From Herbaspirillum sp. AP02 (lineage in GTDB: Bacteria; Pseudomonadota; Gammaproteobacteria; Burkholderiales; Burkholderiaceae_D), in NCBI RefSeq assembly GCF_015767275.1, contig NZ_JADWMY010000001.1:806001-870000 (forward strand): a DNA stretch of 64,000 nt, in the 5' to 3' direction. A model generated the notes under the pieces. The model saw only the letters and a program-made list of their open reading frames with translations. It ran no database searches and was not told the DNA's origin. Made by a program: the position numbers and the translations under genes. Position 1 is the first letter of the stretch, and the number at the start of each line of letters is the position of its first letter. Shown in pieces: positions 54,328-60,957 of this stretch.

Positions 54328-54893
54328 TCATTTCTCGTCGTCAACTGCTGCATGTGGCAGCAGCCCTCTCCCTGTCGGCTACGCTGGCCTCCCCGGCGCT
54401 GGCCGCCGACGCCCCCCGCGTGCTGCTCAAGACCAACATGGGCGACATCACCCTCGAGCTGAATCCGGAAAAAGCGCCGGTCTCGGTCGACAACTTCCTC
54501 AAGTACGTCAAGAAGGGCCAGTACAACGGCACCGTGTTCCACCGCATCATCAACGGTTTCATGATCCAGGGCGGCGGCATGGACCAGAACCTGCGCGAAA
54601 AGCCCACCGATGCGCCCATCAAGAACGAGGCCAATAACGGTTTGAAGAACGAGGTTTATACTGTGGCCATGGCGCGCACCTCGGCGCCGCATTCGGCCAC
54701 CGCGCAATTCTTCATCAACGTCGCCAACAACCGCTTCCTGGACTATCCGGGTCAGGATGGTTGGGGTTATGCGGTGTTCGGCAAGGTGATCGCCGGCACC
54801 GACGTGGTCGACAAGATCAAGCAGGTGCGCACCGGTGGCGGTGATGTCCCGACCACTCCGGTGGTGATCGAATCGGCCAGCATCGTCAAGTAA
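54324..54893 (+). CDS. ppiA: Periplasmic cyclophilin-type peptidyl-prolyl isomerase
   Basis: A 189-aa PPIase with signal peptide [27 protein letters not shown]. The cyclophilin core shows [30 protein letters not shown] and [10 protein letters not shown], with the catalytic Arg in FHR. The ATG overlaps the transpeptidase stop, so the two are coupled. It is closely similar to the cytosolic PpiB encoded next. Confidence 0.93.
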
Positions 54894-54915: not shown

Positions 54916-54951
54916 AGGCGGGCCAGCGTTGCCCGCCTCGTTTTTTTATTT
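54916..54951 (+). terminator. Terminator between ppiA and ppiB
   Basis: An 8-bp stem AGGCGGGC/GCCCGCCT followed by CG and TTTTTTTATTTTT. It closes the TPR-transpeptidase-ppiA operon. Confidence 0.9.
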
Positions 54952-54975: not shown

Positions 54976-55464
54976 ATGGCAGTTCTGCTCACCACCAACC
55001 ACGGCAACATCAAGATCGAACTGGACGCGGAAAAAGCGCCGAAGACCGTTGAAAACTTCCTGGCTTACGTCAATGCAGGTCACTACAACGGCACCATCTT
55101 CCACCGCGTCATCGACGGTTTCATGATCCAGGGCGGCGGCTTCGAACCCGGCATGAAGCAGAAGGAAACCAAAGAACCCATCGAGAACGAAGCCAAGAAT
55201 GGCCTAAAGAACGAGCCCTACACCCTGGCCATGGCCCGCACCGCCGCCCCGCACTCGGCCTCGGCGCAGTTCTTCATCAACGTCAAGAACAACAGCTTCC
55301 TGGATTTCCCGGGCCAGGACGGTTGGGGCTACTGCGTCTTCGGCAAGGTCGTCGAAGGCACTGAAGTGGTCGACAAGATCAAGGGCGTCAAGACCACCCG
55401 CTCCGGCATGTTCGCCGACGTCCCGGCGGAAGATGTGGTGATCGAGAAGGCCGAAGTGGTCTGA
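54976..55464 (+). CDS. ppiB: Cytosolic peptidyl-prolyl cis-trans isomerase B
   Basis: A 162-aa cyclophilin without signal peptide. It has [47 protein letters not shown] and [20 protein letters not shown] lies 7 bp before the ATG. It precedes lpxH, as in E. coli. Confidence 0.96.
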
Positions 55465-55486
55465 GCCAGACCCTCTTCACCCGACC

Positions 55487-56278
55487 ATGACTGATTTCCA
55501 GTTCATGCAAAAAGCGCAACCGACGGTTGCGCTTTTTGTTTCCGACCTCCATCTACAAGCCTCCCTGCCGCGTACCACGGCGGCCTTCCTGTCCTTCCTG
55601 CAGAACCACGCCGCGCGCACGCAGCAGCTCTACCTGCTGGGCGACATCTTCGAATACTGGGCTGGCGACGACGACCTGGTCACCCCCTACAACCAGCAGA
55701 TCGCCGACGCCCTGAAGGCCGTGCAGGCGCACGGCGTTCAACTGTTCTGGATGGCCGGCAACCGTGATTTCCTGGTGGGCCAGGGCTTTGCGGACGCCGC
55801 CGGACTGACGCTGCTGGACGATCCGACGGTGATCACCGTCGCCGGGCGCAAGCTGGCGCTGGCCCATGGCGATGCCCAGTGCACCGATGACCACGCCTAC
55901 ATGGCCTTTCGCGCCCAGGTGCGGCAGCCGGCCTACCAGCAGCAGTTCCTGGCCATGCCGCTGGCGCAGCGCAAGGCCATCATCGAAGGCATCCGCAAGA
56001 ACAGCCAGGACGCCAACCAGAGCAAGGAAATGGCCATCATGGATGTCAATGCCGACGCCATCGCTGCGCTCTTCGCGCAGACCGGCAGCGACGTACTGAT
56101 CCACGGTCATACGCACCGCCCTGCCCTGCATCGGCTGGATGACGGTGAGACCCGCCGGCTGCGCTACGTCCTGCCGGACTGGGAATACGACGTCGAGACG
56201 CCGCGCGGTGGCTGGATCAGCCTGAGCGCCGACGGCATGCTGCATCGGCATGACACCCAAGGCGACGAGATCGCCTGA
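55487..56278 (+). CDS. lpxH: UDP-2,3-diacylglucosamine diphosphatase
   Basis: A 263-aa metallophosphoesterase of lipid A synthesis that forms lipid X from UDP-diacylglucosamine. Metal motifs are FVSDLHL, LLGDIFEYW, AGNRDFLVG, LAHGDAQCTDD and IHGHTHRP. ATG 55487 and ATG 55505 are both possible; neither has a clear Shine-Dalgarno. The first codons contain a strong terminator-like hairpin. Confidence 0.95.
   Translation: MTDFQFMQKAQPTVALFVSDLHLQASLPRTTAAFLSFLQNHAARTQQLYLLGDIFEYWAGDDDLVTPYNQQIADALKAVQAHGVQLFWMAGNRDFLVGQGFADAAGLTLLDDPTVITVAGRKLALAHGDAQCTDDHAYMAFRAQVRQPAYQQQFLAMPLAQRKAIIEGIRKNSQDANQSKEMAIMDVNADAIAALFAQTGSDVLIHGHTHRPALHRLDDGETRRLRYVLPDWEYDVETPRGGWISLSADGMLHRHDTQGDEIA
55509..55537 (+). 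terminator. Terminator hairpin inside the 5' end of lpxH
   Basis: A 13-bp perfect stem AAAAAGCGCAACC/GGTTGCGCTTTTT with a 3-nt loop and a T-run. It spans codons ~8-17 of lpxH and lies 44 bp after the ppiB stop. It looks like the ppiB terminator embedded in the next gene. Confidence 0.8.
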
Positions 56279-60717: not shown

Positions 60718-60745
60718 TTGACAGCATTCACAGACCATCTATAAT
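60718..60745 (+). promoter_or_regulatory. Consensus sigma70 promoter of tRNA-Leu
   Basis: Perfect -35 TTGACA (60718-60723) and perfect -10 TATAAT (60740-60745) with a 16-bp spacer. The start would be near 60752, 17 bp before the mature tRNA. Confidence 0.92.
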
Positions 60746-60853: not shown

Positions 60854-60860
60854 AAACAAA

Positions 60861-60894
60861 AAAGGTCGATTGATGAAAATCAATCGGCCTTTTG
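60861..60894 (+). terminator. Terminator after tRNA-Leu
   Basis: A 14-bp stem AAAGGTCGATTGAT/ATCAATCGGCCTTT with one G-T pair and loop GAAA, followed by TT. It sits 7 bp behind the tRNA. Confidence 0.8.
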
Positions 60895-60957
60895 CGTTTT
60901 TGACCTTCCTTGGGGACCACGCGCAAAGCGCCTGCGCGCCTTGCCCCCCTTCCCTAC

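Follow-up and report, generated by a model that had tools for sequence, protein, structure and literature searches.

A putative leaky intrinsic terminator within the first codons of lpxH in Herbaspirillum and related genera

Leaky terminators between the genes of an operon set expression ratios, and the leader peptides of pyrBI and of the trp and his operons are ribosome-coupled attenuators whose terminator lies close to or overlaps a translated frame, as in lpxH. The lpxH hairpin described here differs from these attenuators in that the frame concerned belongs to the enzyme gene; it has neither a separate leader peptide nor a known signal, and no conserved helix was seen to compete with it. 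It resembles the leaky operon terminators in the proposed outcome, high expression of the upstream gene and low expression of the downstream one, although those terminators sit between genes and the hairpin of lpxH is inside the downstream gene.

Partial terminators in operons are mentioned in passages of PMC4824070, which also describe a close parallel to the present case, a tR2 construct in which a stem and U-tract follow soon after an AUG and more than 27 nt past an upstream stop codon, the ended transcripts having no stop codon. That construct is an engineered Escherichia coli reporter, whereas the lpxH hairpin, a putative terminator, occurs naturally, recurs in related genera and overlaps conserved codons of an enzyme. 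RNA 3′ ends within coding sequences of E. coli, some of them formed by intrinsic termination, are the subject of passages in PMC7815308, where, in one condition, about 20% of the scored ends fit intrinsic termination; unlike the lpxH hairpin, no terminator kept across genera by codon choice is described in those passages, and lpxH is absent from the main text. The uORF attenuator treated in a passage of PMC12218461 is thought to use Rho and is of another kind, and PMC2965389 concerns terminators of 5′ UTRs, lpxH being absent from its main text. No report of a terminator in lpxH was found in the open-licence literature, which is weak evidence of absence as many matches lay beyond those listed. 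ORF-internal terminators are already known, and the lpxH case would add a natural, cross-genus example that is kept by codon choice.

Hairpin at the start of lpxH

The window, the whole stretch of 64,000 nt of Herbaspirillum sp. AP02 DNA that was analysed, carries on the + strand two tandem cyclophilin genes, the first ending at 54893 and the second ppiB-like, followed by lpxH; cysE lies on the opposite strand. The relevant parts, with the evidence for each in brackets, are:

54916–54950, + strand: intergenic terminator of ordinary type that follows the first cyclophilin gene, included as a comparison (scan and fold)
54976–55464, + strand: ppiB-like cytoplasmic cyclophilin gene, stop TGA at 55462–55464 (open reading frame)
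55487–56278, + strand: lpxH, UDP-2,3-diacylglucosamine diphosphatase, 263 aa, start ATG at 55487 (open reading frame)
55487–55528, + strand: N-terminal extension, residues 1–14, ahead of the LpxH profile (profile and solved chains)
55509–55521, + strand: 5′ arm AAAAAGCGCAACC, within the codons for QKAQP (sequence, fold and covariation)
55522–55524, + strand: loop GAC (sequence)
55525–55537, + strand: 3′ arm GGTTGCGCTTTTT, over the V-A-L-F codons (sequence and covariation)
55533–55541, + strand: U-tract TTTTTGTTT, rare codons CTT TTT GTT (codon choice and conservation)

The ppiB-like gene matches NCBIfam NF008057 (6.4e-75, 250.4 bits, under the curated cut-off of 297), and the lpxH product matches TIGR01854 (4.7e-80) and NF003743 (6e-89), both over cut-off and from residue 15 on. 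Solved LpxH chains likewise align from residue 15 or 16 of the product. The 5′ arm falls in the N-terminal extension, the sequence before AQP being variable among relatives, and the V-A-L-F under the 3′ arm is what we take, from established knowledge of the fold and a statement to that effect in the initial annotation, to be the first beta strand of LpxH.

The initial annotation had described a perfect 13-bp stem with a T-run over approximately codons 8–17 of lpxH, and both sequence and fold agree. The 13 Watson–Crick pairs can be extended to 15 through C55508–G55538 and G55507–U55539, and GTTT directly follows the 3′ arm. Counted from the ATG at 55487 the hairpin takes up codons 8–17 and reads in frame, from the start of the stem, CAA AAA GCG CAA CCG ACG GTT GCG CTT TTT GTT TCC. 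The stem begins 22 nt past the A of the lpxH ATG and 44 nt past the ppiB stop, the gap from that stop to the ATG being 22 nt. Codon reading also confirms the earlier observation that no start codon separates the hairpin from SDLHL: there is no in-frame ATG, GTG or TTG between the start of the stem and this motif in the window's lpxH, the second in-frame ATG (55505) lying just ahead of the stem. The hairpin is thereby within translated sequence, and a position upstream of the gene, by way of a later start codon, was rejected for the window.

The RNA of 55505–55548 has a minimum free energy of −22.6 kcal/mol (z = −5.70, equalled by none of 200 shuffles), and the longer segment 55480–55550 folds with z = −5.08. 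Two sequence marks of an intrinsic terminator are present, a G+C-rich stem with a short loop (13–15 pairs, 7 of them G–C, loop of 3) and a U-tract at the stem end (TTTTTGTTT). This U-tract is interrupted, and the terminator at 54916–54950 has a longer one. None of 20,000 synonymous recodings drawn from the codon use of neighbouring genes gave an equally long stem with a T-rich end, and none of 2,000 folded equally well. With up to three mismatches allowed, the exact hairpin pattern occurs at one place in the 5.33-Mb genome, matched on both strands. A survey of 464 kb of that genome (20 stretches and the window, 371 predicted ORFs) returned 51 terminator-like hairpins by a fixed rule, 46 of them intergenic, two partly overlapping an ORF, one inside an ORF in antisense and two inside in sense, counts that are approximate because the ORFs were called by a simple codon score. 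The hairpin of lpxH is the sole one of the 51 that lies wholly within the first 100 nt of a predicted gene on the sense strand; the other sense-internal hairpin has an 8-bp stem and lies at nt 1968 in an ORF of 2,595 nt. A chance origin was rejected on the fold z, the 20,000 recodings and this survey, and a dispersed repeat on the single place in the genome.

A simple terminator scan of the window did not list the lpxH hairpin, probably because its stem runs through the T-run, and between 54939 and 56300 it listed no further terminator-like site on the + strand. Rfam 15 gave no match at the hairpin; its two matches elsewhere, to microRNA families at 55895–55989 on the − strand, are far below gathering scores.

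Conservation, covariation and codon choice

The relatives' genomes belong to a family that is presumably Oxalobacteraceae. Conservation in related species had been named as a check in the initial annotation, and the hairpin is indeed kept: 29 of the 30 genus loci (own included) have a stem with 9 or more pairs (p ≤ 0.02), the thirtieth (L028) having 7 pairs and seven T, and a stem is present at 61 of 99 anchored family lpxH loci. The family set consisted of 30 genus loci (own included), 30 best-scoring loci and 40 picked across genera, and is not a random sample; one of these 100 (L060) was not anchorable and was left out. Three of the 61 passing loci (L033, L047 and L076) have a different or shifted stem, while among the 38 that fail a few are near-misses or shifted hairpins, the failing loci including L065, with a shifted hairpin of 8 pairs, and L068 and L093, where a mismatch interrupts the hairpin. 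Outside the family, none of 29 anchored lpxH loci, each from another family of the class, has the stem (longest stem 7); these were the 30 best-scoring of 108 matching genomes less L191, which was not anchorable.

The lpxH gene is present in 33 of 34 genus genomes; three of the 33 (G018, G029 and G032) lie outside the locus set, and a strict pattern, which allows a mismatch at two pairs, fits G032 but not G018 or G029. Across the family this pattern fits 93 of 392 genomes in 15 of 44 genera, or 14 genera once g37, whose match is probably outside lpxH, is set aside. Thirty of the 93 matches were read as loci and all 30 are at lpxH; the match in G192 is probably not lpxH, its string being identical to one that L121 bears outside lpxH. 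A pattern search over 84,980 species found 68 places, 62 of them at lpxH, in Herbaspirillum, Herminiimonas, Noviherbaspirillum, Undibacterium, Oxalicibacterium, Paucimonas and unclassified Oxalobacteraceae, Burkholderiaceae and Burkholderiales, as well as in a few metagenome records named Duganella, Polynucleobacter, ‘Proteobacteria bacterium’ and ‘uncultured bacterium’.

The hairpin-free loci are of more than one form. In L046, L048, L053 and L055 lpxH starts a few nt from the ppiB stop, near the beta strand, and in L034–L043 the N-terminal extension is kept and the stem is absent. The existence of such loci means that the element is dispensable there and is not needed everywhere. On a tree of LpxH with 65 rows the hairpin label changes five times, at least three of these changes being forced by well-supported branches; gains and losses are not countable from it, since the ‘hairpin’ rows L033 and L047 are in another register and the ‘no’ row L028 keeps a shortened stem. 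With the stemless relatives as natural controls, the lpxH hairpin offers a clean system for ribosome override of termination near a start codon, and it also bears on how cells would cope with the resulting non-stop messages and on the question whether LpxH dose is deliberately limited.

Two loci present stems of their own kind. L032 has a perfect stem, GTGCAACCG/CGGTTGCAC, reached through paired changes and followed by the tail CTCTTTATC with no U-tract, which looks like a decaying copy. Near the lpxH start of L047 there is another strong hairpin, of 11 pairs (8 G–C) with a 14-nt loop holding an ATG and no U-tract, which may be a structure around the start codon in a different genus of the family.

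Covariation was assessed in an alignment (A1) of 56 distinct sequences comprising the genus set, the hairpin-bearing family loci and near-misses, and leaving out L033, L047 and the lineages whose lpxH start is near the beta strand. In this alignment 86.0% of cells are paired, against 38–51% when the partner is slid by 1–3 columns, and double changes occur at 7 of the 13 pairs in 18 cells, counts that do not represent independent events as the sequences are related. No shuffle out of 500 reached the observed value on any of five covariation measures. One of the slid controls, −3, has double changes at 6 pairs (versus 7) and in 13 cells and shows 19 further pair types, the same number as the true structure; it falls short of the true structure in cells paired and in covariation score. 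The two pairs left free in the strict pattern are paired in 93 and 92 of its 93 matches. Paired-arm variants include GCGCAGCC/GGCTGCGC, GCGCGACC/GGTCGCGC (L090), ACGCAACC/GGTTGCGT (L099) and GCGCAATC/GATTGCGC (L077, with P to S and V to I), and the amino acids vary along with the pairing, giving T-Q-P, A-R-P and A-Q-S variants. Protein constraint alone was rejected on these grounds, the arms covarying while the residues change with them.

The arms also hold to one reading frame. Loops measure 3 or 6 nt at all 62 named lpxH loci matching a pattern that allowed 3–9 nt, and a multiple of three at one of six matches outside lpxH. Since the 3′ arm is fixed in the beta-strand codons, an untranslated 5′ arm would allow any loop length; the restriction to 3 or 6 nt thus argues that the arms are kept in one frame and that the hairpin is translated. 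An in-frame start lies upstream of the stem core at 72 of 72 distinct loci (L002–L031 and L102–L169, minus 20 present twice and 6 not at lpxH). A later in-frame start, after the 5′ arm begins, is found at 12 of the 72 (8 ATG, 2 GTG and 2 TTG), where the lpxH start could be inside the hairpin. The distance from ATG to stem core is 18–45 nt (median 27; 67 distinct loci with an ATG assigned), and that from the cyclophilin stop, found upstream in 65 of the 72 distinct loci, is 34–76 nt (median 50). In L102, L116, L127, L133, L135, L144, L145 and L152 an in-frame ATG is seen in the hairpin loop, just before VALF or AALF.

The U-tract is written in codons that the gene otherwise tends to avoid. Among the 61 hairpin loci CTT is used in 55, TTT in 52 and GTT or ATT in 57, and CTT occurs in only 3 of the 38 failing loci (L065, L068 and L093). 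In the rest of the 30 genus lpxH genes CTT makes up 2.4% of Leu, GTT 3.4% of Val, TTT 24.6% of Phe and ATT 10.5% of Ile codons. Of the five positions after the core at least four are T in 46 of 46 core-keeping rows of A1, while at least four of the five before it are A in 22 of 46. The U-tract is kept far more than the opposite A-tract, so that termination on the + strand looks selected; a terminator on the − strand, with its A-tract kept in 22 of the 46 rows only, is not favoured. Terminators predicted inside coding regions are easily dismissed as false, and the one in lpxH is kept by rare codons and paired changes. Synonymous recoding or codon optimization of such genes may alter their expression by deleting a hidden terminator.

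Probable leaky termination and its alternatives

The hairpin is probably a real and long-kept control on the level of lpxH expression. We consider, with a probability of roughly two in three, that it is a leaky intrinsic (Rho-independent) terminator which lies in frame in the first lpxH codons, ends most ppiB transcripts and holds lpxH low. Polymerase leaving ppiB would meet the hairpin about 45 nt past the ppiB stop and would mostly release, with predicted RNA 3′ ends at approximately 55538–55543, and the minority that reads through would yield the full lpxH message, the terminator braking lpxH with constant strength and keeping the lpxH:ppiB ratio low. As no start codon follows the hairpin in this species, full-length lpxH mRNA from any promoter must cross it, and it is this obligatory crossing that would make the brake constant. 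Termination in the cell, its efficiency and its purpose, a low dose of LpxH, are matters that we infer from the strong stem (−22.6 kcal/mol) with its U-tract, the covariation, the frame, the rare codons and the 22-nt gap. Counted against this reading are the 38 of 99 family loci that fail, the short and interrupted U-tract, the 12 of 72 loci with later starts and the slide −3 control, as well as the expectation that ended transcripts would have the lpxH AUG but no stop codon; in PMC4824070 a design of this type was accompanied by about half the expression of the upstream gene. The initial annotation had proposed that the hairpin could end ppiB transcripts, and the placement, 44 nt past the ppiB stop, suits this, the ending itself being predicted from the DNA.

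That annotation had further suggested that translation of lpxH antagonises the terminator and so couples lipid A synthesis to ribosome loading. A translation-sensitive attenuator of this sort, in which a ribosome quick to start on lpxH, or one arriving from ppiB, covers the 5′ arm so that polymerase can pass, would make lpxH track ribosome loading or polymerase speed, comparable to pyrBI, a known terminator inside a short ORF that is opened by a catching-up ribosome, with pause sites allowing the ribosome to catch up (passages of PMC4824070). The single reading frame of the arms and the 18–45 nt (median 27) from ATG to core would accommodate it, yet we regard it as unlikely. Passages of the same paper indicate that in E. 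coli a terminator can be efficient when it lies within 100 bp of the beginning of a coding region, that one placed 30 bp past the AUG lost only about 10% of its efficiency to translation, and that tR2 is fully efficient more than 27–30 nt past an upstream stop codon, the reach of a terminating ribosome, beyond which the lpxH core lies. At 34–76 nt past the stop and 18–45 nt past the ATG the hairpin is where ribosomes should interfere least. Shine–Dalgarno matches of at least 4 nt precede the lpxH start at 3 of 67 distinct hairpin-bearing loci, compared with 21% among random 14-mers and 36% among this genome's long ORFs, the latter control using the furthest upstream start, which is often not the true one. 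This scarcity, seen among related hairpin-bearing loci with no hairpin-free lineages in the comparison, fits a need to keep ribosomes off ended transcripts. Nor does the locus show two hallmarks of ribosome-mediated attenuation, the stem lying within lpxH itself, 22 nt of gap leaving no separate leader peptide with regulatory codons, and no alternative antiterminator structure being seen: a consensus fold built from 16 of the 30 genus loci, considered as the best structure only, has no conserved helix that competes with the stem arms, and neither in this fold nor in Rfam 15 was a conserved antiterminator or riboswitch seen. The proposed antagonism by translation is thus disfavoured, and with it the coupling to ribosome loading is left unsupported. 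A broader proposal, which we think improbable, is that lpxH in Oxalobacteraceae is a self-embedded attenuator, every full-length message crossing a terminator in its own first beta strand, with read-through, governed by polymerase speed, NusA/NusG or translation, as a regulated dial on lipid A synthesis.

Other roles would dispense with termination as the selected function. The hairpin might have been selected for RNA stability or processing, by blocking the 3′ end of ppiB mRNA or offering an RNase site, or because it slows the first steps of lpxH translation, which appears distinctly unlikely to us. A strong, nearly uninterrupted stem with variable loop letters would suit such roles, and a stem at codons 8–17 could slow early elongation, but rare codons keep the U-tract outside the GC core and a mere stem needs none. 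Hfq-bound RNAs derived from 3′ ends carry a terminator with a U-tail, which speaks for a small RNA that is made from the final part of ppiB and finishes at this terminator, as does the existence of ORF-internal RNAs in E. coli (passages of PMC7815308). The stretch from ppiB stop to lpxH ATG is poorly conserved, however, with indels even within the genus and no evident seed in this stretch, which the comparison covered, and a small RNA seems to us very unlikely. It is scarcely credible that the repeat is a DNA-level palindrome serving as a protein operator, an antisense terminator, or the mere product of constraint on the protein sequence AQP..VALF. In the window the repeat is bidirectional and matched on both strands, but the 3-nt steps in spacing and the paired arm changes are unlike a fixed operator; the A-tract needed for an antisense terminator on the − strand is kept in less than half of the rows (22/46); and, against protein constraint, the amino acids vary with the pairing and none of 20,000 synonymous recodings recreates the hairpin.

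The surroundings of the lpxH start have further features. No Shine–Dalgarno match precedes the lpxH ATG in 55467–55489 of the window (longest 1 nt), against 5 nt for ppiB. The start codon (MTDFQFM) is inside a small predicted stem at 55486–55507, and the consensus fold of the 16 genus sequences has a 5-bp helix at the lpxH start with some double changes. Elsewhere in the window, at 60718–60745, a sigma-70 promoter of full consensus (TTGACA-16-TATAAT, 12/12) lies near a long hairpin at 60855–60905.
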